From NCBI RefSeq assembly GCF_000266945.1, contig NC_018025.1, positions 2,604,001 through 2,668,000 of the forward strand: a DNA stretch of 64,000 bases, given 5' to 3'. The notes below the pieces were generated by a model. That model saw only the letters and a list, made by a program, of their open reading frames with translations, was not told where the DNA came from and made no database searches. The translations under genes and the position numbers were made by a program. Shown here piece after piece: positions 7,937 through 31,893 of this stretch. The stretch comes from Desulfomonile tiedjei DSM 6799 (GTDB lineage: Bacteria > Desulfobacterota > Desulfomonilia > Desulfomonilales > Desulfomonilaceae). Positions within the stretch are counted from its first letter, which is position 1; each line of letters opens with the position of its first letter.

Positions 7937-9024
7937 ATGGGGAGAAGGGAAGATTTGGGCGGAGACGAACTCAAACAAGAGCTCACCTTTCGAGATGCAT
8001 GTAAGATCTTCATAACGGGTCCCGGAATCCATGACAGTCCTGGACGATGGCGCCATGAGCTGTCACTGGCGAACATCGGAGCAAAGATTGGTGTGGACCG
8101 CCCGATAAAATCAATTTGGGTACCGGAGCTCGAGCAGTATCAGCATGATCGATTGACAGACAAAGTGAGTCCGGCAACGGTTAATAGGGAACTTACCACA
8201 CTATCCAAACTCTTTTCGGTTCTGATAAAGCATCGTCTCATTGATGCAAATCCAGTGCGATAACTGGACGGGCTATCAGTTCGTGATGGCGAACGTCAGG
8301 TCTACATCAGCTTTGGGGATGTGAAATTAATCATCAGCAAGACTCCAGAATGGTTTAGACCTTTGGCGCTGACAGCGTATTACACTGGAATGAGGCGCGG
8401 GGAAATCCTTGGACTCACGAGAAAACAAGTGAATCTTTCCAAGCGAATCATAGTGTTATCTCCCGAAACCACAAAAGAGGCTCATTGGAAACGAGTGCCA
8501 ATTCATAAGGAGTTGATTCCCATTTTAGAGGGCAGTCTGGAGAGGGGCACTCAAAAAGTAACAAGCCTTAGTAACAAGGTTTTTTGTTCTATGACAAAAA
8601 AGGATCTCGTCCACTCGAGCTCGAAACGTTCAAAAATGTTTGGCCACGTGCATGTGATGCTTTGGGGCTGAAAGAACCTTGGCCGCGATTCCATGATCTC
8701 AGACACACGTGGCGGACGAACGCACGCCGATCCGGAATGGATTTTCAAATAGCCGAGTCTATTCTTGGACATCAAAGCAAAGCACGATCAGTCAGCGATA
8801 GGTACGGCCGAATCGGTGACGAAGAACTAGTGAATGCCATAGATCAGATGACCTTCAACCATGGCGATACGGAAATTCTCGTTGCGAAAGATGTGGCGGG
8901 ACGTTCGTCAAAAAATAGTAACTCAGTAGTGACTGGAAAGCGGTCCAAAAACAAAAGGCCACATTATCATGTGACCGTGTTTCAACTATTTCAACCGGTT
9001 AGTGGTCGGGACGACTGGATTTGA
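7937..9024 (+). pseudogene. Degenerate tyrosine recombinase (int1) of element E1
   Basis: Three frames together encode a protein closely related to the intact integrase at 30476-31798. The first runs from FRDACKIFITGPG to DANPVR. An in-frame TAA at 8261-8263 stands where the relative has a serine codon. The frame then resumes through GMRRGEILGLTRKQV and KEAHWKRVPIHKEL. It shifts near 8575-8590 in a T-run, then continues with FHDLRHTWRTNARRSG and LGHQSKARSVSDRYG to the end. The N-terminal 100 residues of the relative are missing. All catalytic residues are still readable across the frames, so decay is recent. The final frame reads into the tRNA repeat and stops inside it. Confidence 0.88.
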
Positions 9025-9047
9025 ACCAGCGACCCCTGCATCCCGAA
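9003..9047 (-). repeat. attachment-site repeat 1 (tRNA-Pro 3' part)
   Basis: These 45 bases are identical to the 3' part of the tRNA-Pro gene at 31817-31861, from the CCA end through the anticodon loop. They then diverge. They mark the junction between E1 and E2. Confidence 0.92.
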
Positions 9048-10229: not shown

Positions 10230-11411
10230 TCAGGATATTTCCTCTCGATCAAGCAGAGCACAGATAGGACAAATTTTACTCCGAACCTGATGCATGACCC
10301 TGCGCTCCCATTCATGGCCTTCAGGGCAGATCCACCACACTTTCTTGTCGCTGCCGCCTTTCACATCGTGAGGAGTCAAACTTCCATTCTTAGTCGGGTG
10401 CCATTGCTTTGCTATTTGTGGGAACTTTACTGCCAAGTTGTTTAAGTCAGTCACTCTCGTTCCAAAGCAGTTGGGGCATCCCGCCCCTCCCGTACGTCTA
10501 CAAATAGGGGCTTTCCATTCGTGCTCCCTCTTACAAATCCACCACACTTTTCTTCCACTTTTTGGCGTAAAATCAAAAGGAGTGAGATTTTCATTCCTGG
10601 TCGGATGCCACTCCTTAGTCAATTCAGGATGACTTATTGCAAGATTGTGCTCTTCGGAAGGTAGTTTCCCAGCGCAATAGGGGCATCCGATTCCAGCTGC
10701 TCTGCTGGCGACCACAGCTTTCCATTCATGACCATGCTGGCATTGCCACCATACTTTCTTGTTCATGCCTGGGGTAACCATATCTGGACTGAGGTCCGTA
10801 TTTTTGGTGGGATGCCACTCCCTCGCCAATTCTGGAAACTTGACAGCGAGATTATATTCGGAACTCAGCTTCCCTCTATGCATTTGGCTGGGGTCTTTGC
10901 CAGCGCAATATGGGCAGCCAGTTCCCCTCGTCCTGTTATTAGGGCTTGCCTCCCACTCGTGACCGTTTTGGCAAATCCACCATAGCTTTCTATTGCTCTT
11001 CGGGGTCACCATCTGTGGATTCAAGGCACCATTTTTCGAGGGGTGCCACTGCTGAATAATCTCTGGAAACTTTGTCGCAAGATTATTCTCAGGCAGTGCT
11101 CTTTGGCCAGCGCAATAAGGACATCCACGCCCTTTGGTTCGGCTCCCAATCATGGCCTTCCACTCATGACCTTTTTCGCAGATCCACCATATTTTCAGGT
11201 TGCTTCCTGGCGTGACCATGCTTGGTTCCAAGTGACCATTATTAGAGGGATGCCATTGGTGAATTAGCTCCGGACATTTTGTGGCAAGATTATGGTCATT
11301 CGAAGCTTTCTGTCCAGCGCAGTACGGGCATCCAGCCCCTTTCAAACGATTCTGGATCATGGCCTTCCACTCATGACCTTTTTTCGCAGATCCACCAGAC
11401 TTTCTTCCCAC
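10230..11411 (-). CDS. C-terminal part of treble-clef-repeat protein (frameshifted from 11371-13002)
   Basis: This frame continues the upstream gene after a one-base shift. It holds the end of repeat 6 and repeats 7 to 11 of the roughly 65-residue zinc module WHPxKN...LTPxxVTPxSxxKxWWxC-xxGHEWxA...GCPYC (DUF4379 type). Each repeat has a CX-HEW-CPxC cysteine/histidine set for one zinc. The first residues before KKGHEWKAM are out of frame with the family and are not a natural start. No ribosome-binding site precedes them. I therefore treat it as the tail of one 920-residue protein. The last repeat ends ICPICALLDREEIS. Confidence 0.75.
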   Translation of the reverse strand: MGRKSGGSAKKGHEWKAMIQNRLKGAGCPYCAGQKASNDHNLATKCPELIHQWHPSNNGHLEPSMVTPGSNLKIWWICEKGHEWKAMIGSRTKGRGCPYCAGQRALPENNLATKFPEIIQQWHPSKNGALNPQMVTPKSNRKLWWICQNGHEWEASPNNRTRGTGCPYCAGKDPSQMHRGKLSSEYNLAVKFPELAREWHPTKNTDLSPDMVTPGMNKKVWWQCQHGHEWKAVVASRAAGIGCPYCAGKLPSEEHNLAISHPELTKEWHPTRNENLTPFDFTPKSGRKVWWICKREHEWKAPICRRTGGAGCPNCFGTRVTDLNNLAVKFPQIAKQWHPTKNGSLTPHDVKGGSDKKVWWICPEGHEWERRVMHQVRSKICPICALLDREEIS

Positions 11412-13002
11412 TATGTGGGGAAAACATTTCTGGGGTAAGAGGACTATTCTTGGTATAATGCCACTGTTTGGCGACCTCAGGAGTTTCCCCCAGCAGAGAC
11501 TTCTCCAGAGGCGGCCCTGGCAGATAAGAAACTATTCTCCTGAATTCTTTGGGATTAGCAAAGTCGTTTCGCCGCAAATAGTCGGCCACTTTATTTGTGT
11601 CCTGTTCATCCAAATTCAAAACTCTACTAAAGACACTAAGAAGGGATTTAACGACATCAACTTCTGGATCCCTCGTTTGTTTGTCTGACAACAGAATGTC
11701 ATTTTCAGATGATCGGGGGAGACCTTCTCCACGCACTCGGAATAATCGAATGCTCATTCCTTCGAGTTTCTCGTTCTTAAGCGCATCCTGTTCAGTTCTT
11801 TCCATATGCCAGAAGGCACCATCATACTCGACGGCTGCTCCGTACTTTGGAATGAAAATGTCGCACTCGATGCCATCAACACGGTGCCGCCACAGCACCT
11901 CGTGAAACAGGAATTTTAGTTCAGAAAAGAGTCGAATCTCGGGTAAGGACGTGTTGGGCTTACATTCAGGACAGTTTTGGCCTTTGGCCCTATTCGAGAC
12001 GCTGGATTCCCATTCGTGACCTCGACTGCATTGCCACCAAACCTTCTTGTTGCTGCGAGGGGTCACAAGACGAGGAGTCAATGCTCCATTCTTACTTGGA
12101 TGCCATTCTTTCGCCAAATCAGGTAATTTCAGGGCTAAGTTATGGTGCGAATGTGCCTGCTTCCCTATGCATTTGGCGCACTGCCTTCCTTTTGCCCTGT
12201 CACAAATAGAAGCTTTCCATTCGTGACCTTTTTGGCATTTCCACCAGACCACCTTTCCGCTTCCCGCAACAACCTGATCTGTTTTCAGCGTGCCATTCTT
12301 GGTAGGATGCCACTCAGCTGCTAATTTCGGATATAGGGTGGAGAGGTTGTTGGATATTGACACTCTTCTGTTGAGGCAAAATGGACAGTTTTCGCTATTT
12401 CTCCGCTGCGCAGGGCTGGCTTCCCATTCGTGGCCATGTCGGCACAGCCACCAATACTTCCTACTGCTAGCGGGGACAACATCAAACGGTGTGAGAATTC
12501 CATTTTTTGTGGGATGCCACTGTCTTGCTATTTTGGGATTGATCACTGCCAGATTGTATTCTGGTGACGCATGCCTGCCTAGGCAGTAGGGGCACCCGCT
12601 TCCCTTAACTCGATTACTGGGCGAAGCTTTCCATTCATGGCCTTTCTCACAAATCCACCAAATCAGCTTATTACTCTTCGGTCTCACCTGAAAAGGGGTC
12701 AATGAGCCGTTCTTTTGGGGGTGCCATTCTCGTGTGAGCATCGGAAATGTTGCACCCAAGCTCCTTTCTAGACTGACTTTTTGCCCTGCACAATAAGGAC
12801 AGCCCCTTCCGTTGGACCTCTTTGAGACAGTCGCTTCCCATTCATGTTGCTTTTCACAGATCCACCACACTTTCTGACCACTGCCATGTGTAACATCAGA
12901 TGGCTTCACGTCGCCGTTTTTTTGGGGGTGCCATTCATTAGCAAGATCGGGGTGGGTGACAGCAAGGCTGGGTTTGTCTGGCAACGTTTCTTGAGGGGAC
13001 AA
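11371..13002 (-). CDS. Treble-clef-repeat protein with embedded Vsr/DUF559-like nuclease domain
   Basis: A 543-residue reading frame. Residues 1-340 hold five DUF4379-type zinc modules (EWHPxKNG...VWWxC...GHEWxA...CPYC). Then comes a nuclease-like domain: PEIRLFSELKFLFHEVLWRH, GIECDIFIPKYGAAVEYDG, then AFWH...KN...SIRLFRVR. The E, D, E and K/R pattern resembles the PD-(D/E)XK core of very-short-patch-repair and DUF559 endonucleases. Repeat 6 starts after it and is cut at WWICEKRS by a stop. Other copies of the junction have five As in the coding strand, but here there are six (near 11382-11387), so the +1 insertion splits the gene. Large nucleases of this build are plausible defence or selfish-DNA proteins; this is inference. 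Confidence 0.8.
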   Translation of the reverse strand: MSPQETLPDKPSLAVTHPDLANEWHPQKNGDVKPSDVTHGSGQKVWWICEKQHEWEATVSKRSNGRGCPYCAGQKVSLERSLGATFPMLTREWHPQKNGSLTPFQVRPKSNKLIWWICEKGHEWKASPSNRVKGSGCPYCLGRHASPEYNLAVINPKIARQWHPTKNGILTPFDVVPASSRKYWWLCRHGHEWEASPAQRRNSENCPFCLNRRVSISNNLSTLYPKLAAEWHPTKNGTLKTDQVVAGSGKVVWWKCQKGHEWKASICDRAKGRQCAKCIGKQAHSHHNLALKLPDLAKEWHPSKNGALTPRLVTPRSNKKVWWQCSRGHEWESSVSNRAKGQNCPECKPNTSLPEIRLFSELKFLFHEVLWRHRVDGIECDIFIPKYGAAVEYDGAFWHMERTEQDALKNEKLEGMSIRLFRVRGEGLPRSSENDILLSDKQTRDPEVDVVKSLLSVFSRVLNLDEQDTNKVADYLRRNDFANPKEFRRIVSYLPGPPLEKSLLGETPEVAKQWHYTKNSPLTPEMFSPHSGKKVWWICEKRS

Positions 13003-19068: not shown

Positions 19069-19383
19069 ATGGAAAGAAAGGAGTTATTGACGGCTGAAGA
19101 AGCTGGAGCCTATTTGAATGTGTCAAAGGCCACCATTTTGAAATGGGCAAGAAAAGGCAAAATTGAAAGAGTAAAGATTTCGGCCAAGATCGTGTTATTT
19201 AGCAGAGAGGCCATAGATAATTTTTTGAGAGAGAAAACGGATAAGGTAGAATCAAAAACAACGAATCACCAACATGCCGTACGTACGGCAAGTTACCCTA
19301 AGGCGGTTCAGAAAGGAGGTGGTAAGAAAAGTTCAGGGGAATCTTGGCGAGACCTCAGACAGGAGGTTTCGTCATGGGATTGA
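19069..19383 (+). CDS. Excisionase-like MerR/HTH_17 DNA-binding protein (xis2)
   Basis: A 104-residue protein. Residues 6-60 read LLTAEEAGAYLNVSKATILK, then KGKIERVKISAKIVLFSREA and IDNFLRE: an excisionase-family winged helix. The tail is basic and low in complexity. Palindrome copy 4 lies inside its coding sequence (19275-19290). The stop overlaps the integrase start by 10 bases, so directionality factor and integrase are co-translated. An alternative ATG at 19065 is out of frame, so the ribosome-binding GGAGG lies about 12 nt from the true start. Confidence 0.75.
   Translation: MERKELLTAEEAGAYLNVSKATILKWARKGKIERVKISAKIVLFSREAIDNFLREKTDKVESKTTNHQHAVRTASYPKAVQKGGGKKSSGESWRDLRQEVSSWD
19275..19290. 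repeat. E2 palindrome, copy 4 (inside xis2)
   Basis: A perfect TGCCGTACGTACGGCA, within the codons for HAVRTA of the excisionase-like gene. The flanks AACA and AGTT extend the symmetry except for one base pair. Confidence 0.9.
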
Positions 19384-20661: not shown

Positions 20662-20710
20662 TGGTCGGGACGACTGGATTTGAACCAGCGACCCCTGCAT
20701 CCCGAATGCA
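20662..20710 (-). repeat. attachment-site repeat 2 (tRNA-Pro 3' part)
   Basis: These 49 bases are identical to 31817-31865 of the intact tRNA-Pro gene. This is the E2/E3 junction; the tRNA sequence is lost after the anticodon stem. Confidence 0.95.
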
Positions 20711-20845
20711 AATAACAGTAAAAACAGCACTTTAAGAGAATCGCTTCATCAGGCGCTTTTCCCTATGATTCCAAATAGCTGAATGTCTTTATTAAGACCC
20801 TTTGAACCTTTTTAATCCCTATTAATTCCCTTCATTTTCGAGCTT

Positions 20846-20865
20846 GGGAGTAATATGGGAGTAAC
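20846..20865. repeat. Probable integrase arm sites, left end of E3
   Basis: GGGAGTAATATGGGAGTAAC, two copies of GGGAGTAA 11 bp apart, 136 bp inside the left att. Identical to 31727-31746 at the right end. Confidence 0.7.
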
Positions 20866-20896
20866 GGTTTTTGAGCAAATAAAAATGCGGGTTTTA

Positions 20897-21415
20897 CTAC
20901 CAAGGCCAGAACTTCCCACCTTGATCATCAGCTTTAATCGTCTCCACAGGCGCGATGTCTACAGTATGCACGTCATGGTTAAAATTCCAGAATGAAGTGG
21001 ATTGTTGAGGCGAATCATCAGCTTTGGATAGGCTGACAGAATCGGTACCAAAGGCATTGTCGTACGATATGGGATCTGGCGCTAATGCGTCAATACGTTT
21101 TGACAGGCTGGCAATATCCGATTTGAGCTGGCCTATTGCTGGACTCGAAGAAGAGGATTGTCTACCATTGCGAGCATTCGCACTTTTCGCAAGCTGGCGA
21201 ACATTATCCCTTATCGTGTTAGCATCTTTGACTGCACCCTGTAATTTTTGCAAAACGCTATTAATACTCATGTTTTCTCCTGTATCAGCTTTAATTATCT
21301 GAAATGGTATTTGATTCGCACCTTTAGGCACGAGACTGATAAATTGCACGTCAATGTTCGTCAATTTGTTGACTGGCACCCATTTTTCTGACCATTCGAC
21401 AGTTTTAATCGCCAT
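20897..21415 (-). CDS. XkdF-like phage protein
   Basis: A 172-residue protein. Residues 20-45 read NIDVQFISLVPKGANQIPFQ and then IIKAD. That is the motif found near the start of phage XkdF-type proteins (VSLVxxGANxxPFxIxK). Residues 50-115 are helical and serine-rich, then the chain ends acidic with FWNFNHD and KFWPW. No other head, tail or portal gene is near, so it may be a leftover phage gene or a co-opted one. An AAGGTG site precedes the ATG. It lies 9 bp after the gene at 21425-22072 on the same strand. Confidence 0.5.
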   Translation of the reverse strand: MAIKTVEWSEKWVPVNKLTNIDVQFISLVPKGANQIPFQIIKADTGENMSINSVLQKLQGAVKDANTIRDNVRQLAKSANARNGRQSSSSSPAIGQLKSDIASLSKRIDALAPDPISYDNAFGTDSVSLSKADDSPQQSTSFWNFNHDVHTVDIAPVETIKADDQGGKFWPW

Positions 21416-21424
21416 TTCGACACC

Positions 21425-22072
21425 TTATCCAGCTTTGCGAAGCACTTTCTCAGAAATGGGGGTGAGATGGGTACGCGGGTCTCTACTCCCCAAAGGCGCG
21501 AGCAGGCATTCCCAGCGCAAGTCAAAGCCTGTCAGATTGGCGAAAAATCGCTCGTACAGCTTCACGACATAGCCCTTATGCTTCTCGCGTGCCGGTCTGT
21601 TCGTCTCAATGGATTTGACCAATTCAAGGGTGATTTCGATGAAATCAGGCTCCGGATTCGTTTTCAACCATTTCGACATGACGGCGAAACTAGACACAGA
21701 TTGCGACCAAATCTTGTAATCGTTGGGTGAGAGAGCAGCTTTCGCAAATGCAATTTGCGATTCCCGCCATGCTTTGCGCTGGTTAGACAAATCGGTCTTT
21801 GCAAACTGGCTCAATGCAGCCCTAAAATCCTCGATGCTCCACCCCTGTTCCTGTCTGATTTTCTGGAGTAAACAAATACCCCGATAATTGCGACCACGGT
21901 TGATATCCCGTGCATGCTGAACAGTGAAGCAGGTTCCCACAAGAGCCTGTAATTGCGGTGCTGGCATTGCGTCCATAAGCTCAACGCATTGACGGAAACC
22001 ACGATCTAAAAGGTGATATCGCACTTCGTAAATATCGTTAGAATATGCCTGAATCGAATTAGAGTTTTCCAT
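21425..22072 (-). CDS. Hypothetical helical protein
   Basis: A 215-residue, entirely helical, soluble protein without recognised domains (VRYHLLDRGFRQCVELMDAM, then NYRGICLLQKIRQEQGWSIE). I start it at the ATG at 22072, where AGGAAAGG lies about 11 nt upstream; a longer frame begins at 22105. It is in one block with the XkdF-like gene downstream and the small CopG-like gene upstream. Confidence 0.6.
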   Translation of the reverse strand: MENSNSIQAYSNDIYEVRYHLLDRGFRQCVELMDAMPAPQLQALVGTCFTVQHARDINRGRNYRGICLLQKIRQEQGWSIEDFRAALSQFAKTDLSNQRKAWRESQIAFAKAALSPNDYKIWSQSVSSFAVMSKWLKTNPEPDFIEITLELVKSIETNRPAREKHKGYVVKLYERFFANLTGFDLRWECLLAPLGSRDPRTHLTPISEKVLRKAG

Positions 22073-22136
22073 AATGTATGCCTTTCCTGAGATATCCGTA
22101 TTCAATTATACCAAAATGAGGTTGTGCTGGTTGTCT

Positions 22137-22349
22137 CTACCAATTACCGCGCGACCCGCGTCTATTCGCAATTGCTGGACGCACATTACTGTTATCACCC
22201 ATGCCTAACGCACGCGCTACCAGTTCGCGAGTGAGAGCAGAAATAGTCTTGCGCTGTTCGTTCGCCATATTAACCAATGCATCATGCATCGTTTGAGGCA
22301 ATTTGAACGTGACCGGGACCGTTATAGGCTGGCTCTCTGTTGCAATCAT
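22137..22349 (-). CDS. Small ribbon-helix-helix-like protein
   Basis: A 70-residue protein; the ATG at 22349 has AGGAG about 9 nt upstream (the longer frame to 22463 has none). The core ITVPVTFKLPQTMHDALVNM then ANEQRKTISALTRELVARAL fits a CopG/Arc-type strand-helix-helix fold. A basic tail follows. It is a probable repressor. It points away from the nonamer cluster at 22762-22942 and is one candidate for the protein that binds it. Confidence 0.6.
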   Translation of the reverse strand: MIATESQPITVPVTFKLPQTMHDALVNMANEQRKTISALTRELVARALGMGDNSNVRPAIANRRGSRGNW

Positions 22350-22761
22350 GGGGATTTCTCCTATCAACGTATCATTTAGCAGGAACTTCCTGCGCACTGT
22401 CTCAGCCTGAACTGTAGTATTTAGGCTGATTATCAATTGGTTGCTGCATGGTGACTGTAACAATTAACGAGCCATACAGGTGGAAAAGGTATACTTCACA
22501 AAGGAGCATACAGCAAGACATATTCGATGCAAGACGTGCACATAATCGCGGGCAAAATTTGCCGCGCATTGGCCTGAGATATCAACTACCCCGGTTCAGA
22601 CATCGCTTTTTCCGACGAAATGGTTCCAATGCTGGGGTGGTAGCTAACCTGCTGACATGACAGGCGGAACGCCAATCGTGCTACGCTGGGCGCAACGTGA
22701 GCGCTGGTTGATGCCTATCGACCTGGACGTGTGAGCGTATGACACTTCAAAGTCTCATACA

Positions 22762-22942
22762 TGCAAGACACTGAGCGCGCAGTGTATGACATTAATGGTG
22801 TCGTCTGTTATGGCTCATTTTACATGTCTTGCACGAGATGCGCGCTGTCATACAAGAGACTGATAGAAAAAGATGCAAGTGTCTTGCAAGTGTATTGCAT
22901 TTCTCTTGACAGGGTGGAATAAGTGTCATACACTGCAATACA
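22762..22942. repeat. Nonamer iteron cluster upstream of the serine recombinase
   Basis: Eight copies of TGTMWTRCA in either orientation: 22762 (TGCAAGACA), 22783 (TGTATGACA), 22825 and 22880 (TGTCTTGCA), 22846 and 22924 (TGTCATACA), 22891 (TGTATTGCA) and 22934 (TGCAATACA). A near copy lies at 22528. The last two overlap the promoter -10 of the gene at 22974. Confidence 0.8.
22906..22934 (+). promoter_or_regulatory. Promoter of the serine recombinase gene
   Basis: TTGACA at 22906-22911, a 17-bp spacer, then TACACT at 22929-22934. The nonamer at 22924-22932 covers the -10 and the next one begins at 22934, so binding there should repress the gene. Confidence 0.65.
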
Positions 22943-22973
22943 TAAGGGATGCACGTTGAAAGGGGTAGAGACA

Positions 22974-23657
22974 ATGAGAGCCATAGGATACGCAAGAGTG
23001 AGCAGCAGGGAACAGATTGACGGTACGAGCCTGGAATCTCAAGAGACTATGATTCGCCAGTATGCAGCACTGAAGGGTATGGAGCTGGTTGACGTGCTGG
23101 TTGACGCTGGCGTATCTGGTGGCAAGCCTCTCGCCTCAAGACCTGAAGGTGCACGTCTGGCTGAAATGGTGGGCTCTGGTGAGGTTCAGGCTGTCATTAT
23201 TTGCAAGCTGGACAGAGGTTTTAGAAGCGCCTCCGATTGCCTGAACAATGTTGAGGCATGGGAAAAAGACAGTGTGAGCTTGCATATCCTGAATCTTGGG
23301 GGACAGAGCATCGATACGAGCACTCCGACCGGAAAGTTTTTCATTACGATAATGGCCGGTGCAGCCGAACTCGAAAGGAATATGATAAACGAGCGCTGCA
23401 ATGAAGGAAGGAAAGCGAGAAAAGCAGAGGGAAAAAGGATTGGCGAACTCCCCTATGGTTATGACCTCGCAGACGATGGAAAGCTGGTCGAAAACGAGAC
23501 TGAGCAGAGAGCATTGACGATAATCAGAGACATGAAAAATGCTGGTAGCTCTCTGAGAACCATAGCGAATCATCTGAATGAGCATGGTTACACCCCCAAG
23601 AAATCGCCAGTATGGACTCATGGACACGTTCAAAGCGTTTTAAGACGTGCCGCATAA
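22974..23657 (+). CDS. Serine recombinase (resolvase/invertase family)
   Basis: A 227-residue protein started at the ATG at 22974 (AAAGGGG upstream). The N-terminal catalytic domain shows IGYARVSSREQ with the nucleophile serine at about residue 10, then SLESQETMIRQYAALKG, IICKLDRGFRS and a long AAELERNMINERCNEGRKA helix. A short Recombinase-type region and a C-terminal helix-turn-helix (SSLRTIANHLNEHGYTPKKS) follow. It probably resolves multimers or inverts DNA in E3; which one cannot be read from the sequence. Integration is explained by int3 instead. It sits behind the nonamer-controlled promoter. Confidence 0.9.
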   Translation: MRAIGYARVSSREQIDGTSLESQETMIRQYAALKGMELVDVLVDAGVSGGKPLASRPEGARLAEMVGSGEVQAVIICKLDRGFRSASDCLNNVEAWEKDSVSLHILNLGGQSIDTSTPTGKFFITIMAGAAELERNMINERCNEGRKARKAEGKRIGELPYGYDLADDGKLVENETEQRALTIIRDMKNAGSSLRTIANHLNEHGYTPKKSPVWTHGHVQSVLRRAA

Positions 23658-23722
23658 CAGATACGACCATAACGGACTTGGGGGAACTCCCCCCAGGTTC
23701 CCTATTATAAGGAAGGTACAAC

Positions 23723-24298
23723 ATGGAAAAATCGCAGATTATCGCAGAAATTATCAGGGTTGCTGGTGAGATTGGCTTCAATCGCAAAGATTGGCAGAAA
23801 TTCGTGGACACATTGAATAAACAGGAGATTACTACCACGACAGGCAAAGCGTGGAGCAAATCCAGTCTTGATATGTTTTGCAAAAGAGAGCACATCGAAT
23901 TTGCAATACAGCCAAACGCAGTGCAAGACACGCGACCTGATGAAATACAGTGTGCTCCACTGCAAGACAGCGAACCAATTGACGAACCTGCAAGACAAGA
24001 GAGTGCATCTGTCATACAGCTAAATGACCATGATGCAGGCGAACTGAACGAATTACTGACATGGTGGAAAGAAAATAAAGGAGTAATGATGCCTAAACCT
24101 ATTGATATCAGACCCTCATTCAAGAGGGGGTCTGTTCAAGAACAGAAAACTGTTACATTCCGATTCAACCAAGAGCTGCTGAATAGAGCGCGAGAGCTGG
24201 CTGTAAGCAAAAAATCTCTGACAGGTGGCACTCTGAATGGACTTGTCGAGGTCTTGCTATGGCAGGCGCTGGGGTCTCCTGACGACTTGATTGACTAA
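23723..24298 (+). CDS. DNA-binding protein with five nonamers inside its gene
   Basis: A 191-residue protein preceded by AAGGAAGG. The N-terminal 60 residues look helical (IAEIIRVAGEIGFNRKDWQK) with a segment like a recombinase-type specificity helix (TTTGKAWSKSSLDMFCKREH). The middle (70-115) is an acidic linker. The C-terminal 50 residues (KTVTFRFNQELLNRARELAV then SKKSLTGGTLNGLVEVLLWQ) fit a ribbon-helix-helix. Five TGTMWTRCA nonamers lie within the linker codons (23902-24018). It could be the autoregulatory binder of these sites, similar in concept to a partition or copy-control protein; this is inference. Confidence 0.6.
   Translation: MEKSQIIAEIIRVAGEIGFNRKDWQKFVDTLNKQEITTTTGKAWSKSSLDMFCKREHIEFAIQPNAVQDTRPDEIQCAPLQDSEPIDEPARQESASVIQLNDHDAGELNELLTWWKENKGVMMPKPIDIRPSFKRGSVQEQKTVTFRFNQELLNRARELAVSKKSLTGGTLNGLVEVLLWQALGSPDDLID
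23902..24018. repeat. Nonamer repeats within the coding sequence
   Basis: TGCAATACA at 23902, TGCAAGACA at 23922, 23961 and 23989, and TGTCATACA at 24010. The offsets are 20, 39, 28 and 21 bases. Same motif as upstream of the serine recombinase. Confidence 0.85.
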
Positions 24299-24305
24299 AA
24301 AAATA

Positions 24306-24332
24306 TTGACCTCTGGTTTGAACGCGTATACT
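24306..24332 (+). promoter_or_regulatory. Possible promoter before the XRE regulator
   Basis: TTGACC at 24306-24311 and TATACT at 24327-24332, with a short 15-bp spacer. It lies about 80 bp before the regulator gene. Confidence 0.4.
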
Positions 24333-24413
24333 CCTACCCCCCAAGGGGAAGGTTTACATGCTTTGGCATGTAATAAAAAGTGACTCTGGAAGGTACCTGC
24401 ACTTTTGGAGGGA

Positions 24414-24653
24414 ATGAAGGTTCCGTTGACTCGCTTAGAATGCCTCAGACGTTTGGCTGGTTTATCGCAGAAAGAATTAGCGCAAAAAATCAATTATGGC
24501 TCCACGACGCCAATTTCATTAGTGGAGCGCGAGCGTAAGACCTCGCAAAGAGTTGTTACTGGCAAGTTTAAGAAATTGTTAGAGCAGTTTTTCGATGTTC
24601 CTTTTCCCAAATTGGCTGAAAAACTCGATTTATCGAAACTCTTGACCCAATAG
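24414..24653 (+). CDS. XRE-family helix-turn-helix regulator
   Basis: A 79-residue protein with a Cro/CI-type helix-turn-helix (LTRLECLRRLAGLSQKELAQ, then STTPISLVERERKTSQR). A GGAGG lies only 2 nt before the ATG at 24414, which is too close. A TTG at 24423 is spaced better (11 nt) and would give MTRLECLRR, the usual XRE opening. The start is therefore uncertain by 3 codons. It is a likely repressor of the replication gene downstream. Confidence 0.75.
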   Translation: MKVPLTRLECLRRLAGLSQKELAQKINYGSTTPISLVERERKTSQRVVTGKFKKLLEQFFDVPFPKLAEKLDLSKLLTQ

Positions 24654-24932
24654 TTTTACTGTAATTCGTCGTATCTCTCCCCCTGTTTCCAGGCGTGTGT
24701 GACAAGCTACGTGCTGTGTATGACATGCCGGAAAAACTGAAACCCATCTGGTGAGGATGGGTTCCTGGAGAGATTCCGATGGAAAAAATGATGTGATGAC
24801 CATTTATTTATTCAAAAACTCCCCATTTATCAAGCATTTTTGTCGAATTCGACACGAAAAAAATCGCGTCAAGGTGTGTACGTACTGGTGCGACTTCAAT
24901 TCATTTTCAATTTTTTACCTGGAGGATTACCG
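24654..24932. promoter_or_regulatory. Leader region of the replication gene
   Basis: Contains a TGTATGACA nonamer at 24717-24725 and a hairpin AACCCATC/GATGGGTT at 24741-24763. After it comes a mini-ORF (ATG at 24779, MEKMM, stop) whose ribosome-binding site and start closely resemble those of the real gene at 24933. It may serve as a translational control leader. Confidence 0.5.
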
Positions 24933-27725
24933 ATGGAATCTGCTGGCGCTATTGTTACGACAGAAATTAAGAGGCTGGAATCTATTGTCTCGCCAGACGT
25001 GAGCTTGGTAAGTCAAAGCCACGCGAGAGACATAATTACAAATCACCACAATTACAGGTTCCCAGATATATTTGAGAAATACTTCCCTGACTGTTCAAAA
25101 AACCAGACGTGTCCAAAATGTGGGGTTGAGGGATACCAAATAAACGAGACTCAGGGGATTTGCGCCAATGAGGACTGTAAAGAGTCTTTAGACGTAATGG
25201 ACCTGAGAATGATGCGTCACAATCTAACTGAAAGAACCTGCACAAAGACTGACATTTACGCTCTGTACGCTGCTGAAATTGGTTTTTGTGTTGAGCGCAG
25301 ACCTTTGACCTTAGAGCAGCGAACCTACACAAAAGCTCTCCTGAGTTCAATTCTCAGGTATCTGAGGCTTGGCTGGTCACTCTTTTTATGCTGGTGGATT
25401 GTGCCAGAGGAAACAGAGAAGGGGATTCAATACGTCTGCGCATGCTCGAAATGGAAACGTAAAAGCGCGAATACGAAATGTAGTCAGGGAAAACATCCTT
25501 TAGGGAGTCTCTACCCAGAAGGGTTCAAGGACGCCACAAAATCGCGTGTGGAGCTGTTTCAGCACGTCTCTAAAAATCCGATGGCGAATCTCGCAGTGGC
25601 GACAGGTAGCGTCTCAGGAATTTGGGTGCTGGACGTGGATTTATCCAAAGGTGAAGCGATTGGCCAAGAGAGTCTTGATAAGCTCATTCAGCAATATGGG
25701 GAGCTTCCTGACACTGTTGAGGGTATTACTGGTTCAAGTGGACGCCATTTGCTGTTTAAGTGGCCAAAAGGCAAGGTTATCAAATGCAGCAGTAATCAGG
25801 TTGCTCCTAAGCTCGATGTCCGCGCGGAAGGTGGATACATCGTCACAGCTCCGTCACTTCATGAAAGTGGATCCGCGTACCGCTGGAAAGAAGGACACGC
25901 ACCAGGAGAAATCGAGATTGCAGAGGCTCCTAATTGGCTGATTGACCTTTGTGTTCAGGCTGGGGAGAAACAGGAACGTGAGAGCCAAAAGGAGCCAAAA
26001 CGCGAGAAGCAGAACCACGCTCATTCTTCACGTCATGACAGCGACCCCAGACTAGAAACATTAAAGAAGTTAGACCCTTATCGCGTGATAACTGCATGTG
26101 GAAAACAGGCGTATGGCAAGAAAACGAGCGTCCGCGATGAAAAAGACCCCAGCGTGCAAATTAATGACGATTGGTCCCCCCCTGCATTCTACGACCATGG
26201 GACCAAAGAAACTTTCGATATTATTGGTTTTGTGGAGCGCTCTCTAGGCCTCAGTTTTATTGAAGCGTGCAATTTTTTGTGTGACCTGGAAGGATTGCCG
26301 CGATTCCAATTTGGTTCAAAAGATTATCAGAGGAAGCAGGAAGGGAGTTTCTACAATGAAGGTGGAGTTAAGCGAGAGCCAAACAAGGTCCATATTTTCC
26401 CTGATTACGAGACAGCATGCCTATTCGCTGACGTTTGCAGCACTGCACTAATTGGTGGTTATGGCGCTGCAACAGGCAAAGAGAGGCTTCCAGGGAGTAT
26501 GGGGGACGATTCGCGCGAGGTGTTTATCTTCACTGACGCTGCCAATGATATCCAGGTTAAAGGCTCCCAGAAGCTCGCTAATGGTATTTGTCGATGTAAT
26601 AAAGAATTGAAACTAGTCGATTTGTCCCCTTTTTTGGGGGGTATCTCCCTGCAATCGTATTGCGCGAAACACGACCTTGACCACGTGAAGACCCTCTTGA
26701 GAGGCGTTTCCCAAAAAACAGAGCTTTTCGAGCCTCCGATTTTACAGACCAATACTGGCCACCTGATTCAAGTCAGTAATTATGCAGACCTTGCCAAAAA
26801 GGTCTTTCCAAAAATCAACTGGATAGTCCCCAGGATTATCATGGAAAGCAATCTCATCCTATTCGCAGCGCCACCTAAAGGTGGAAAGTCACTATTCTGC
26901 ACCAATGTTTCGCTTGCTGTTTCGTCTGGTGGCCTAGCGCTGGGAGAACTCCAGTGTATCCAAGGCAAAACGCTGTATTTGGCTCTGGAAGACTCTGAAC
27001 GTCGATTGCAGGCACGTCTGATAACTATGAATGAGGGTAAGCCTCTGCCTGCTGATGCCTTGTACACCCGCGACTGGCCAGCATTTCCAGAAGGAATTGA
27101 GATGCTTCAGCGTTGGCTGGACAAAAATCAGGATTGCAGGCTGGTCATAATCGACACAATTCAGAAATTGAAGCCTCTTTCTGACAAATCGCGAAGCGAA
27201 TATGCGAACGATTATGCTTTGCTTGGTCCGCTACACCGATTGGCACTGGATCGCAATTTGGCAATCATTGCAGTGCATCACACTCGAAAACAGCAGGCTG
27301 GCAACGATTCAGACCCTTTCGAGCGTCCTTTAGGCTCCCAAGCGCAGATGGGAGTATGCGACAGCACAATCATTCTTGAGCGCTCTTTTGGGACAAATGA
27401 GGGGACGCTATACATCAAAGGACGCGACATTGAGGAATCGACTTTTACCCTCGAATTCGACGCAGCAACGCTGAACTGGCGATATGTTGGGATTGCGTCA
27501 GACGTGAAGCTGTCCAAGGAATCGAAAGAAATTCTGGAAATATTGCGTAAGGCTAAAGGCGTGCCTCTGTCTGCAAGAGATTTCGCTGAAAAGCTCGATG
27601 TGAGCAGGCGTACAATCCAGAAACGCTTGGAGCGCTTGGTTGATAGGGAAGAGATTGTCAAAGCTGCTGGCCAGGAAGGAAAGTATCTGCTGTCGCCTGA
27701 CGAGAGATTCAAGTGTCCATTTTAA
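24933..27725 (+). CDS. Primase-polymerase/RecA-type helicase replication protein
   Basis: A 930-residue protein; the ATG at 24933 has GGAGG 7-8 nt upstream. Domain order: a zinc ribbon (C60, C63, C77, C82); a primase-polymerase domain (about 150-340) with D234 and D236 in VLDVDL, SSGRH with H272, and D295; a degenerate TOPRIM-like middle (480-600, FIFTDAANDI); a RecA-like RepA/DnaB-type ATPase with Walker A APPKGGKS (646-653), Walker B VIID (738-741) and VHHTRK; and a C-terminal winged helix (about 850-930). It should initiate and prime replication of E3 in circular form. The iteron region at 27745-27990 directly follows. Confidence 0.88.
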   Translation: MESAGAIVTTEIKRLESIVSPDVSLVSQSHARDIITNHHNYRFPDIFEKYFPDCSKNQTCPKCGVEGYQINETQGICANEDCKESLDVMDLRMMRHNLTERTCTKTDIYALYAAEIGFCVERRPLTLEQRTYTKALLSSILRYLRLGWSLFLCWWIVPEETEKGIQYVCACSKWKRKSANTKCSQGKHPLGSLYPEGFKDATKSRVELFQHVSKNPMANLAVATGSVSGIWVLDVDLSKGEAIGQESLDKLIQQYGELPDTVEGITGSSGRHLLFKWPKGKVIKCSSNQVAPKLDVRAEGGYIVTAPSLHESGSAYRWKEGHAPGEIEIAEAPNWLIDLCVQAGEKQERESQKEPKREKQNHAHSSRHDSDPRLETLKKLDPYRVITACGKQAYGKKTSVRDEKDPSVQINDDWSPPAFYDHGTKETFDIIGFVERSLGLSFIEACNFLCDLEGLPRFQFGSKDYQRKQEGSFYNEGGVKREPNKVHIFPDYETACLFADVCSTALIGGYGAATGKERLPGSMGDDSREVFIFTDAANDIQVKGSQKLANGICRCNKELKLVDLSPFLGGISLQSYCAKHDLDHVKTLLRGVSQKTELFEPPILQTNTGHLIQVSNYADLAKKVFPKINWIVPRIIMESNLILFAAPPKGGKSLFCTNVSLAVSSGGLALGELQCIQGKTLYLALEDSERRLQARLITMNEGKPLPADALYTRDWPAFPEGIEMLQRWLDKNQDCRLVIIDTIQKLKPLSDKSRSEYANDYALLGPLHRLALDRNLAIIAVHHTRKQQAGNDSDPFERPLGSQAQMGVCDSTIILERSFGTNEGTLYIKGRDIEESTFTLEFDAATLNWRYVGIASDVKLSKESKEILEILRKAKGVPLSARDFAEKLDVSRRTIQKRLERLVDREEIVKAAGQEGKYLLSPDERFKCPF

Positions 27726-27744
27726 TCAGAAATTCCTTAGATAC

Positions 27745-27990
27745 CTGTCGCCATGTCGCTATATATAGCAAAGTGTAATAATAATAATAATATAGAGGTA
27801 TATAAGTGACTACACCCCCCCCCTTCACCCCCTGTCGCTCCTGTCGCCACATGCATAATTACTGGCGACAGGGGCGACACCCAGCGACACCCCCCCCTGT
27901 CGCACAGAAGTAATGGATATGACAGGGGATATATACCATTGCGACAGTTTTACGTATATATGGCGACAATGAGTTTTTTCGACTGTCGCT
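27745..27990. repeat. GTCGC iteron array, candidate replication origin of E3
   Basis: About ten copies of CTGTCGC or its complement GCGACAG (sometimes with one change) lie here: 27745, 27753, 27832, 27841, 27864, 27872, 27882, 27897, 27941, 27961 and 27983. They surround an AT-rich tract at 27772-27805 (ATAATAATAATA and TATATA). Iterons plus an AT-rich segment beside a Rep gene are typical of plasmid origins. Confidence 0.65.
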
Positions 27991-28018
27991 ACGAACGAAC
28001 GAACGAGACGAACGAACG
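27991..28018. repeat. CGAA microsatellite
   Basis: Near-perfect tandem ACGA/CGAA units, about 28 bases, at the end of the iteron array. It may be a slippage tract. Confidence 0.75.
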
Positions 28019-28093
28019 CATTTCTGAAATTGGTTGACTGACGACAGCCTGAATTTCAGGCGAACGATAATTGATACATGGAGGAATTGTGCT

Positions 28094-28642
28094 ATGAAAG
28101 GCTTGATTGGCGAGGAGCAGACGTATGGACCCTGGAAACTCTCACGCGAGACAGTGGACCGCTGGCCATTGCTCGACAAATGCTACGCACAATCGATTAA
28201 CACCGACCTGTCCCGAGCAATCGAGACGGGATTTCTGGTTGATACGGTATCTGGACGGAGACGGTACCGGGATGGAATCCGGGGGATTGTTGCGCATGAG
28301 AGATATTATGGCTGGGCATGCTCCGTATTAATCCCGTTCGTATCTTTCGTCCCGAGACGGAAATTGACGTCCGTTCAAATCGATCTGTTACCATCGTGCC
28401 AAACATTTCCGGAAACGGTCCTGGACAAGCTCGAAACGCTTCTGATGCAGTATCGGGTACCGCGCGGTGATTACCTGATAGGACAGCGAGTGTCATTCGT
28501 GGACGCATTGCGATGCGATGCTGACGAGCTTGGCGCGCGGCTGGTCGAATTCGTGCAGGCCAATGCGAGATACAGAGAGCCTGAACGAACGGAATTTGAG
28601 CAAAGGCTGGGAGTTGTCAGGCCAGCACCATTTGCGTGCTAA
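28094..28642 (+). CDS. Hypothetical protein of E3
   Basis: A 182-residue protein; the ATG at 28094 has GGAGG 8-9 nt upstream (the longer frame from 28034 has no such site). It contains TYGPWKLSRETVDRWPLLDK and GFLVDTVSGRRRYRDGIRG, and in the second half RVSFVDALRCDADELGARLV. There is no signal peptide. I do not recognise the family. It follows the putative origin. Confidence 0.6.
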   Translation: MKGLIGEEQTYGPWKLSRETVDRWPLLDKCYAQSINTDLSRAIETGFLVDTVSGRRRYRDGIRGIVAHERYYGWACSVLIPFVSFVPRRKLTSVQIDLLPSCQTFPETVLDKLETLLMQYRVPRGDYLIGQRVSFVDALRCDADELGARLVEFVQANARYREPERTEFEQRLGVVRPAPFAC

Positions 28643-28653
28643 GAGTGCTCACG

Positions 28654-28753
28654 TTCAGCATAGTGAAGACTGGCATACCCCCACCCCCAGTAATCGAGGG
28701 TTGCGAGAGGTACGCGAGCGGGTGAGACAGTAACGCTAATTCACTATGCTGAA
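28654..28753. repeat. 14-bp inverted repeat flanking a GC-rich 72-bp segment
   Basis: TTCAGCATAGTGAA at 28654-28667 and its exact reverse complement TTCACTATGCTGAA at 28740-28753. The inside is GC-rich with further short repeats. It could be a structured RNA, a nick site or a recombination target. Confidence 0.65.
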
Positions 28754-28930
28754 TATCCTGACACATAACGAAAATAAAGGCTTAATCATTTCGAGCACTT
28801 GCGCGTCTTATAAAATCATGCGTGTGCAGGGAATAAATGATTGACTGGAGTCACTGCCATGATATGACAGGGGAAGGACACGTATACGTCAAGCATTTTA
28901 ATGATTTGGTTCATTTTGGAGGGATTGACG

Positions 28931-29713
28931 ATGATGAATTTGAGTGGTGCGAGACAGAGTAGTTTATTTGCTGAGGAAACGAGGGTTGAGCAGGTTGAGC
29001 AGGTTGTTACTGCGCGGAAGGTTGCCAGGAAGACGTTTAATCGACCTAACGAAAATATCGAATGGACTGCATACTCTTGGAATCCAGTGACAGGGTGTCG
29101 ATATAATTGCAGCTATTGCTATGCCAGAGGAATAGCGCATCGCTTCAATGGTGAGGCTGGATTTACGCCACAATTCCACGAGGACAGGTTGAACATGCCA
29201 TACGACACGCCAATTCCACGAGGTGATGAGGCTGGAACCAGAAACGTGTTCGTCTGTTCGATGGCAGATTTATTTGGAGACTGGGTACCATGCGAATGGA
29301 TTAACGCGATTTTGGACGTATGCAGGCGAACGCCACAAAGGACATACCTATTTCTGACGAAGAATCCCAAGGGGTATTTGGAGTTCAGCTTTCCGGAGAA
29401 CTCATGGTTAGGTACGACCATTGACAGGCAATCGAGGGTTGAGCAAGCAATTGAGGCATTCGGTCAATTGGAGCATGGCACGAAATTCGTCTCGTGCGAG
29501 CCCATGCTTGAGGAATTGAGTTTCGAGAGTTTTCCATTCCATTGGTGCATCATTGGTGGAATGTCTCGCACTGGTAAGCCACCTATGCAGCCAGAATGGA
29601 GCTGGGTTGAATCTCTGATGACGACTGCCAGGGAAGCAGGAGCCAAGATATATCACAAGCCAAATTTGATTGTGCCTGCTGGAAGCGAGAGGTTGAAAGA
29701 GTATCCGGTATAA
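28931..29713 (+). CDS. DUF5131 (phage Gp37/Gp68-type) protein with radical-SAM-like cysteines
   Basis: A 260-residue protein; the ATG at 28931 has GGAGG 9 nt upstream. It shows EWTAYSWNPVTGCRYNCSYC with C56, C60 and C63 (a CX3CX2C cluster), then VFVCSMADLFGDWVP, TYLFLTKNP and GGMSRTGKPPMQPEW. This is the DUF5131/Gp37-Gp68 family, frequent in phages and mobile elements. The cysteine spacing suggests an iron-sulfur enzyme of the radical-SAM superfamily. Its substrate is unknown. It is probably cargo. Confidence 0.85.
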   Translation: MMNLSGARQSSLFAEETRVEQVEQVVTARKVARKTFNRPNENIEWTAYSWNPVTGCRYNCSYCYARGIAHRFNGEAGFTPQFHEDRLNMPYDTPIPRGDEAGTRNVFVCSMADLFGDWVPCEWINAILDVCRRTPQRTYLFLTKNPKGYLEFSFPENSWLGTTIDRQSRVEQAIEAFGQLEHGTKFVSCEPMLEELSFESFPFHWCIIGGMSRTGKPPMQPEWSWVESLMTTAREAGAKIYHKPNLIVPAGSERLKEYPV

Positions 29714-30013
29714 AATTCTATTGACACGTTGCGAGAGTTTCGACTACTCAGTGGAGCAAATCGAATCGGTAAAGTTTTGAAAGCGAACAAATTGCATGCT
29801 GTCAGTTCCCAGAATTGGCAGAGAACGGGATTTCCCATAGTATTGACGTCAATTGATTGCGATGCGCGTAATTGGATATCCGGTCTGTGTAGCTTCCCTG
29901 CTGCACCCTATCGTCTCACGAGAAAGGCACGCGGCTTGACGCGCTGTCTTGAGGCAAGTCGCACCTGTTAAGGTGTCCCCTGCATCGCGACCAGGGATAA
30001 CGCGGAGGTGACC
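29714..30013. other. Intergenic region before xis3
   Basis: A 300-bp gap between DUF5131 and the excisionase gene. A TTGACA-like hexamer occurs near 29721, but no convincing -10 follows at standard distance. No gene is recognised. Confidence 0.4.
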
Positions 30014-30020
30014 ATGTATA

Positions 30021-30482
30021 GTGAATCACCTGGACAGAGAAGAGAGCGTAACAGAAGGACCATTTGAAGAAACTTTACAGCCAGTAAAGCAAGACTCCCC
30101 CATCCCTACCATTTTACGACCCCAGCAGGTTGCTGAACTCCTGCAAATGTCCACGAAGACCGTTCATGCGTTGTGTCGAGCTGGGAGATTGTCCTATTTC
30201 TGGATTAATGCCAAAGAGAGGCGTTTCACTGCTGACGATGTACACGCTTATTTAAGAGCGTGCCATGTGGAGTCGAGCGCTGTTCCTGCTGTTCGTGCTG
30301 GACGTGCGCGAGCTCAACAGAGGCGAATTGACGCGACCCCTGCGCAAGATCCTGTTGACACGTCCTGTCATAAACTCTTACCCTCTGACTCGAAAGGGGG
30401 TGACAGACAGGCGAGACGCAAGACGAATCATAGGGGAAACACTGATAGAGCGAGACTCAAAGAGGAGTTTCGTTCATGGTAA
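30021..30482 (+). CDS. Excisionase-like HTH protein (xis3)
   Basis: A 153-residue protein with a GTG start. Residues 30-85 (LRPQQVAELLQMSTKTVHAL, then AGRLSYFWINAKERRFTADD) form an excisionase/MerR-like helix-turn-helix. A long basic, low-complexity tail follows. The GGAGGTG site fits an ATG at 30014 better, which is out of frame and would give a 17-residue peptide, so initiation is uncertain. The stop overlaps int3 by 7 bases, the same arrangement as xis2-int2 in E2. Confidence 0.7.
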   Translation: MNHLDREESVTEGPFEETLQPVKQDSPIPTILRPQQVAELLQMSTKTVHALCRAGRLSYFWINAKERRFTADDVHAYLRACHVESSAVPAVRAGRARAQQRRIDATPAQDPVDTSCHKLLPSDSKGGDRQARRKTNHRGNTDRARLKEEFRSW

Positions 30483-31798
30483 TCATCAAAACGAGCAAAG
30501 GTCAGAGTGAGTACGCTCTTTTCTTCTATCCCTTCACAATACGACAGCTTGAAGGGATGGGATTAGAGGCGAAGAAAAAGAAAGTATTGTTGAGGCTTCC
30601 AGCATTAAAGTGTCCTTCTGCCAGAGGTGAGAAAGAGGCGAAGAGGATTGAAGCATTGATTTCCAATGCGTGCAAAAACTGGAATTTCAGTGAGCTGGAC
30701 AGCGCGAGTCGTGAAGCGTGCGGTACAATGTTCAGGTCATTGGGAATCGAAGTACCGGCATCTTTAGGGATTGGACCAGAGCCAAGGCGCGAGTTTACGT
30801 TGAAAGATGCAAGCAAGCTATTTCTGACAGATCCAGAAATAAGAGATTCGCCTGGACGCTGGAGACACGAGGCGTCATTACTGAACCTTGTACCAAGGCT
30901 TGGCGCGAATACCCCAGTGAAGTTGATTAAGGTGGCGCACCTGAAACAGTATCAGAACGATAGACTGCGCGAGCGTAAACAGGCTTCGACAATCAATCGT
31001 GAGCTGGCCACCTTATCGAAGCTGTTCAGGATTCTGGTCGAGAATGACGTGGTGGACGTAAACCCTGTTCGTTCATTAAAGGCACTGTCTACACGGTCAG
31101 GCGAGCGCCAAGTGTATCTATCGTTCGCAGATGTGCAGCTAATCGCCTCGCATTGTCCAAAATGGTATCAGGATCTTATTTGGACTGCGTATTACACAGG
31201 CGCGAGACGTGGCGAGCTTTTAGCACTGACTCGAAAACAGGTGGACTTGGCCAAGCGCATTATCGTGATTTCACCAATGGCGACAAAAGAGGCGCACTGG
31301 AAAAGAATTCCCATTCATCAAGATTTACTCCCCACCATTGAACCATTGGTCAGGTTTGCACCTGCTGACACTGACAACCTTTTTCTGCTGAGAGATAGCA
31401 AGGGAGCACGTCCTATTGGTCTTGAGACTTTCAAAAACTGCTGGGATCGTGCATTGACTGCATTGGAGAAGAGTGGAGAGTGGAAACATGCACGTCCACG
31501 ATTCCACGATTTACGTCATACGTGGCGAACCAATGCGCGAAGGTCTGGTATCGATTTCCAGATAGCGGAAACGATTTTAGGCCACCAAAATAAGGCTAGG
31601 AGCGTTTCTGACAGGTATGGACGCATCAGTGATAAAGAACTACTCGAAGCTATAGAGAAGCTCATAGTGGAAAATGGTGAAACTGAAGTCTTGTTAGCAC
31701 GCGAGATTACAGGCAAAAATGGTCATGGGAGTAATATGGGAGTAACAGTTGAGCATCAGGGAAAGAAAAAAGCCACCCAGTTGGGTGGCCTGTCTTAA
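30476..31798 (+). CDS. Tyrosine recombinase (int3) of E3
   Basis: A 440-residue integrase, intact. Residues 1-100 are a variable N-terminus, 105-195 the SAM-like core-binding domain and 215-400 the catalytic domain. Catalytic residues: R244 (TGARRGE), K271, H344 and R347 (HDLRHTW), H370 (LGH) and nucleophile Y381 (SDRY). It is closely related to the int1 pseudogene and more distantly to int2. The last codons contain the arm-type repeat. The gene ends 18 bp before the tRNA, so integrase and attachment site move together. Confidence 0.94.
   Translation: MVIIKTSKGQSEYALFFYPFTIRQLEGMGLEAKKKKVLLRLPALKCPSARGEKEAKRIEALISNACKNWNFSELDSASREACGTMFRSLGIEVPASLGIGPEPRREFTLKDASKLFLTDPEIRDSPGRWRHEASLLNLVPRLGANTPVKLIKVAHLKQYQNDRLRERKQASTINRELATLSKLFRILVENDVVDVNPVRSLKALSTRSGERQVYLSFADVQLIASHCPKWYQDLIWTAYYTGARRGELLALTRKQVDLAKRIIVISPMATKEAHWKRIPIHQDLLPTIEPLVRFAPADTDNLFLLRDSKGARPIGLETFKNCWDRALTALEKSGEWKHARPRFHDLRHTWRTNARRSGIDFQIAETILGHQNKARSVSDRYGRISDKELLEAIEKLIVENGETEVLLAREITGKNGHGSNMGVTVEHQGKKKATQLGGLS
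31727..31746. repeat. Probable integrase arm sites, right end of E3
   Basis: GGGAGTAATATGGGAGTAAC within the last codons of int3, 70 bp before the tRNA. Identical to 20846-20865. Confidence 0.7.
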
Positions 31799-31816
31799 TG
31801 ATTTCAAGTAGTTACA

Positions 31817-31893
31817 TGGTCGGGACGACTGGATTTGAACCAGCGACCCCTGCATCCCGAATGCAGTGCTCTACCAGGCTGAGCCACGTCCCG
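31817..31893 (-). tRNA. tRNA-Pro (anticodon CGG)
   Basis: A 77-nt gene with CCA encoded. The acceptor stem CGGGACG pairs with CGTCCCG. The anticodon stem CTGCA/TGCAG encloses the loop TTCGGGA, giving anticodon CGG. The T loop GGTTCAAATCC is standard. It is the integration target of E1-E3; the common core ATCCCGAA (31854-31861) lies over the anticodon loop. Confidence 0.97.

Follow-up and report, generated by a model that had tools for sequence, protein, structure and literature searches.

The window, a 64-kb stretch of DNA from Desulfomonile tiedjei DSM 6799, is located in a contig of 6,500,104 bases. The genome totals 6,527,027 bases (2 contigs), and relatives identified by name are two Desulfomonile metagenome assemblies and one Deltaproteobacterium. 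It contains tandem integrative elements at a tRNA-Pro(CGG) gene (31817-31893), delimited by repeats of about 45 bp (9003-9047, 20662-20706 and 31817-31861). Only the last of these repeats lies inside a detected tRNA gene, and a scan with Rfam revealed nothing besides this tRNA. One of the elements, termed E3, carries a small serine recombinase gene followed by a gene for a partner protein, as well as replication, excisionase-like and integrase genes (Table 1). A further gene of E3 (28901-29713) resembles radical SAM mobile pair protein A (TIGR04471, 6e-23, under its cut-off). In the neighbouring element the palindrome GCCGTACGTACGGCA occurs four times (13158, 14505, 17688 and 19267), once within a small gene (19069-19383) before the integrase. 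By their sequence, these palindromes are possibly a family of gene-embedded sites similar to the one described below for E3. A 207-bp tandem repeat was found at 10948-11361, and a 25-bp motif recurs six times in 10320-12874.

Table 1. Genes and sequence features of element E3 (positions in the window; the strand of single nonamers is given in brackets)
Feature	Position	Strand	Remarks
Element E3 between attachment repeats	20662-31861		repeats begin at 20662 and 31817
Putative crossover site (site I)	22736-22761		CGTATGACACTT-CA-AAGTCTCATACA; 10 of 12 arm positions pair
Accessory nonamers	22762-22854		22762 (-), 22783 (-), 22825 (+), 22846 (+); starts 21, 42 and 21 bp apart
Direct nonamer pair	22880-22899	+	11 bp apart
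Sigma-70-type promoter of the recombinase gene	22906-22934	+	TTGACA, spacer 17, TACACT
Inward-facing nonamer pair over the -10	22924-22942		likely operator for autoregulation, predicted from sequence
Small serine recombinase	22974-23657	+	227 aa; resolvase domain and Recombinase-type HTH (Pfam)
Partner protein	23723-24298	+	191 aa; N-terminal recombinase-like HTH, disordered linker, C-terminal helical domain (candidate ribbon-helix-helix)
In-gene array	23902-24018		23902, 23922, 23961, 23989 (-), 24010 (+), weak 23941; codons 60.7-99.3, predicted disordered linker
Nonamers before the replication gene	24696-24725	-	weak 24696, strong 24717; 21 bp apart
PrimPol and AAA_25 replication protein	24933-27725	+	PF09250 2.5e-38, PF13481 4.7e-27; ATG start picked by eye
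Excisionase-like gene	30021-30482		
Tyrosine integrase	30476-31798	+	

The original prediction listed fourteen copies of the nonamer TGTMWTRCA in E3. All of them were recovered at their coordinates within 2 kb (22762-24725), with the predicted split into eight copies at 22762-22942, five at 23902-24018 and one at 24717. One further copy in the window lies beyond E3 (37272). The 15 copies compare with a mean of 3.5 in shuffled sequence, and at least 15 were reached in none of 100 shuffles. Across the genome, 261 matches were counted on both strands (6,527,027 bases, 2 contigs) versus 219 for a reversed-pattern control. The nonamer is thus near its background frequency and hardly enriched in the host DNA; at the genome-wide rate about 0.08 copies would be expected in 22762-24725, and therefore the 14 observed are not due to chance. 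A matrix scan added weaker copies that were absent from the original prediction (22736, 22753, 23874, 23941 and 24696) and gave no match in the 684 bp of the serine recombinase gene.

Judged by its domain content, the E3 recombinase is an ordinary small serine recombinase. Like the small serine resolvases/invertases, it combines the resolvase catalytic domain, including its Ser and Arg residues, with an HTH at the C-terminus (PF00239 5.7e-36 and PF07508 7.6e-05, for the longer reading frame). Its relatives are 67, 61 and 55% identical. S10, R8, R81 and R84, the serine and arginines of the catalytic domain, are invariant across four members of the subfamily. Beyond the family, the subfamily was detected at 1e-60 in one of 395 genomes of the phylum, namely that of the window itself. 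The promoter of the gene is present as claimed, with nonamers 22924 and 22934 lying over it. The other upstream nonamers are likewise located between the start codon and a 26-bp palindrome, some of them 21 or 10-11 bp apart.

The two arms of this palindrome are the weak nonamers 22736 and 22753 (TGTCATACG and TCTCATACA, degenerate copies with one mismatch each). The palindrome was absent from the original prediction. Since its arms are nonamers, the word is tied to the recombinase. With arms of 12 positions around a central dinucleotide, it has the sequence of a palindromic crossover site as expected for a res site. It occurs a single time in the 6.5 Mb genome, with up to 3 mismatches allowed, and no second crossover site was found in E3. 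This fits resolution rather than inversion: a DNA invertase switch of the Hin type has two inverted crossover sites. As a crossover palindrome made of the same word lies at the outer edge of the array and its core is conserved in relatives, 22736-22942 is most likely a res site that includes an operator at the recombinase promoter.

The palindrome was spotted by side-by-side reading of upstream regions. Its core ACTTNNAAGT (ACTT-NN-AAGT) was chosen by eye, so that all statistics on this core are post hoc. It precedes the recombinase gene in all four intact members of the subfamily, E3, L017 (same genome), L019 (another genome of the family) and L036, and is missing from L022, in which the recombinase is frameshifted (4 of 5 subfamily loci positive). 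Among 24 more distant loci it was found in one; the background is 6 in 258,921 bases or 0.012 per 500 bp. The 26-bp palindromes of the four members begin 152-238 bp before the start codon. They read CTGGACACACTT-CT-AAGTGAGTCCGG in L017 (10 of 12 arm positions pair), CTGGACCCACTT-CT-AAGTGTGTACAT in L019 (9 of 12) and CGGGAAACACTT-GA-AAGTGATTCCCA in L036 (10 of 12). In a motif-free test, the best 12+2+12 palindrome was reached by 1, 0, 5 and 1 of 100 shuffles in the four members; 10 of 29 loci, these four included, gave at most 5 of 100.

Strong 26-bp palindromes with a different core (CTTCGNNCGAAG) were observed before plasmid recombinases of Solidesulfovibrio and Marinitoga (L063:3899-3924 and L064:2820-2845). 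From their sequence, they are likely crossover sites of another subtype.

The partner cannot simply be classed as a ribbon-helix-helix protein. Over residues 1-60 it resembles the serine recombinase HTH, with weak scores in E3 (PF20552 0.02, PF07508 0.049) and better ones in the homologous partners (PF07508 4.4e-04 in L017 and 3.3e-05 in L019). The L019 partner exceeds the Pfam cut-off for PF07508 (24.5 vs 21.1 bits) and matches the HTH of its own recombinase (37% over 35 aa, E 1e-04). Among phages, residues 10-72 of the E3 partner matched two Vibrio phage serine recombinases, in the HTH part only. In the structural model, a well-ordered three-helix domain (residues 1-60; helices 3-17, 21-33 and 46-55) is followed by disorder (61-100) and, near the C-terminus, by two helices (150-162 and 171-183). 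The recombinase model ends in three helices (175-189, 194-203 and 216-226) in the same order and with similar loops. For the C-terminal domain of the partner, no Pfam RHH match was obtained in 9 members, and Foldseek gave no match at E ≤0.001 and none in support of a ribbon-helix-helix fold. No relatives of the partner were found in plasmids, and 0 loci in viral contigs. The pair of recombinase and HTH-bearing partner was detected three times (E3, L017 and L019). In L036 and L022 the recombinase is followed by a partner without a recombinase-like HTH. Adjacent short paralogue pairs of the C-terminal domain, also without HTH, occur at L018:9386-10189 and L021:985-1861; no serine recombinase of the same type is present among the nearby listed ORFs.

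Within the partner gene, five nonamers were found versus 0.30 under synonymous codon permutation, and at least five occurred in 0 of 10,000 permutations. For this test, the word set was restricted to the three exact forms present among the eight upstream copies. As the in-gene nonamers lie in two reading frames, they do not reflect a protein repeat. The mean pLDDT over the codons concerned is 45-51. An ungapped match of upstream region and partner gene (L017 0/200, L019 13/200, E3 30/200, L036 71 and L022 76) proved too blunt for nine-base words, and shared 7-mers were therefore used instead. More 7-mers are common to the partner gene and the upstream region (300 bp) than under synonymous permutation in E3 (0/1000), L017 (7/1000) and L019 (3/1000). 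No excess was seen in L036 (257/1000) and L022 (633/1000), where the partner lacks the HTH, or in the recombinase genes (E3 215, L017 135, L019 77 and L036 298 of 1000). The excess in L017 is restricted to k=7 (59/1000 at k=6, 104/1000 at k=8), and the controls were less clean when the upstream region was shuffled instead of the gene (L017 recombinase gene 3/300 at k=7). As a second line of evidence, L017 carries a 23-bp unit both upstream and within the partner gene (20/23 identical, 0/200).

The array word differs between the members. When 8-mers were counted de novo in the upstream regions of 17 recombinases, 0/40 was reached only in E3 and the plasmid pOSCIL6304.01, with 21/40 in L017 and 36/40 in L019. 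The arrays of L017 and L019 are thus based on words in common with the partner gene and not on upstream counts. The L017 upstream region alone contains no significant 5-mer (best-word p 0.19). In these two loci the palindrome arms are of the GGAC type and the array word is of the TTCCC type, so that E3 is the basis for linking the recombinase to the array. A promoter match lies 26-55 bp before the start codon in L019, followed by an inverted pair (by eye); the scan of L017 found no promoter, and an inverted pair seen by eye precedes its start codon. Over these few loci, the in-gene array follows the HTH-bearing partner (3/3 vs 0/2) and the palindrome follows the intact recombinase (4/4). It is chiefly because of this dissociation that we propose the partner as the reader of the array.

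Direct spacing of 11 bp is seen in E3, L019, Oscillatoria, Gluconobacter and within the L017 partner gene. As a family-wide rule it was considered from 11 pairs versus 1.8 expected in 17 loci (0/200), a set that included the loci which had suggested it. The rule was dropped after 12 held-out plasmid relatives gave 3 versus 2.1 (164/500); some of the L017 pairs are not the array word.

The plasmid recombinases of pOSCIL6304.01, Gluconobacter and Picosynechococcus are 33-44% identical to that of E3, and a small gene that abuts or overlaps often comes directly after them. Clear arrays are present in pOSCIL6304.01 (TGTCTAGYR, upstream of the recombinase) and Gluconobacter. In contrast to E3, no recombinase-type HTH was recognized by eye in five translated next genes, that of pOSCIL6304.01 among them, and 11 of 12 next genes share no clear word excess with the upstream region. 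The exception is L072 (6/1000). The case of pOSCIL6304.01 indicates that an array needs no such partner.

We consider it fairly probable that the nonamers belong, as words bound by protein, to a site-specific recombination module of the resolvase type on the integrative element E3, in which the partner reads the array as accessory and autoregulatory protein and the recombinase cuts at 22748/22749. The serine recombinase would cut and rejoin the DNA at this point within the palindrome. The words at 22762-22942 would serve as accessory sites and as operator over the promoter, forming a res site of about 207 bp together with the palindrome. With its recombinase-type DNA-binding domain and a C-terminal domain that is probably dimer-forming, the partner would read the array, repress the recombinase promoter and help to order the synapse; the nonamer pair at the promoter would give feedback. 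In a dimeric element, the recombinase dimers on both copies of site I would be brought together with the accessory array, filled by the partner and perhaps also by the recombinase, and the product would be two monomers. The task is thus likely to be the resolution of dimers of the excised or replicating element.

The second array, written into the codons of the partner's own disordered linker, may be a remote accessory or enhancer-like element for the partner, a feedback site, or both. The Fis-bound recombinational enhancer is located inside hin. The in-gene array could act as a distant accessory element comparable to the Fis-bound enhancer of the Hin system (PMC3798978), or in feedback on the operon. 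More tentatively, and as a possibility rather than a probability, we propose a recombination system with an accessory array encoded in the codons for a disordered linker and read by the product of that same gene, a recombinase-type DNA-binding domain standing on its own. From element to element the word would change jointly in promoter and gene, so that protein and coded site would co-evolve.

The original prediction suggested that one DNA-binding protein, perhaps the partner as a ribbon-helix-helix protein, controls resolvase, itself and replication. This agrees in outline with the single word family shared by the recombinase promoter, the partner gene and the leader of the replication gene, and the reader is likely to be a DNA-binding protein from the same gene pair. 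Within the partner, however, the array is more likely read by the recombinase-like HTH at the N-terminus than by the ribbon-helix-helix-like C-terminus.

It seems unlikely that the recombinase alone reads all nonamers. In that case the partner would be no more than a relic or would regulate other targets, and the in-gene copies would be decoys or additional sites for the recombinase. Against this, L036 with its HTH-less partner has site I but no in-gene array, and the array words of L017 and L019 differ from their site I arms. In favour of this alternative are the nonameric arms of site I in E3, the 11 of 12 positions at which 22921-22932 (minus strand) is identical to a site I half-site, and the array of pOSCIL6304.01 without a recombinase-HTH partner. 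Rather doubtful, too, is pure transcriptional autoregulation, in which the partner would act as repressor at numerous operators, both upstream and within the gene encoding it, and the palindrome would be one more of them. The inward pair over the -10 and the nonamer pair before the replication gene would suit such a repressor, but the palindrome has the size of the Hin site (26 bp hix; PMC3798978), and its core is kept in members whose array words differ. Very improbable are iterons or handcuffing sites at a replication origin, as considered in the original prediction: the spacing of about 20-21 bp in the partner gene and in the pairs and the replication gene downstream would be in line with them, but just one strong and one weak copy precede the PrimPol gene and no other, iteron-like repeat family is found there. 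Least credible is the partition centromere, bound by the ribbon-helix-helix protein of 22137-22349 (weak RHH_1 match, E 0.18), since despite clustered phased sites no ParA or ParM type NTPase gene is present among the E3 proteins scanned (a subset of the ORFs), and the divergent gene upstream in L017 encodes, by eye, a coiled-coil-like protein instead of one of the ribbon-helix-helix kind.

The favoured resolvase-type module can be compared with known systems. In Sin site II the half-sites are arranged head-to-tail and Tn3 res has three dimer sites, according to PMC2428073 and PMC9943657. Like Sin/resH and Tn3/gamma-delta res as presented there, the E3 recombinase is encoded beside its own putative site, which combines a palindromic crossover site with putative accessory sites, some of them head-to-tail in E3 and Sin site II. 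However, the proposed E3 site is about 207 bp long versus 86 or 114 bp, and in E3 a recombinase-type DNA-binding domain is found on a further, separate protein whose gene contains array words. With the Hin system (PMC3798978), it shares the 26 bp of the crossover site (hix) and, on the E3 side as a proposal, a remote accessory element for another DNA-binding protein, which is Fis in the case of Hin. The proposed accessory protein of E3 is not Fis and bears a DNA-binding domain of the recombinase's type, and inversion is unlikely because the E3 genome has one crossover site. Our literature search revealed no account of a separate partner with a recombinase-type DNA-binding domain and array words in its gene.

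If the proposed module is correct, a binding-site array would be kept inside a coding gene, at the codons for a disordered protein linker, and the accessory factor would be made of a DNA-binding domain of the kind found in the recombinase itself. E3 and its relatives would then be a small testable model for recombinase specificity changing together with its sites, and a resolution module would be added to the replicating integrative elements of Desulfomonile-like bacteria.
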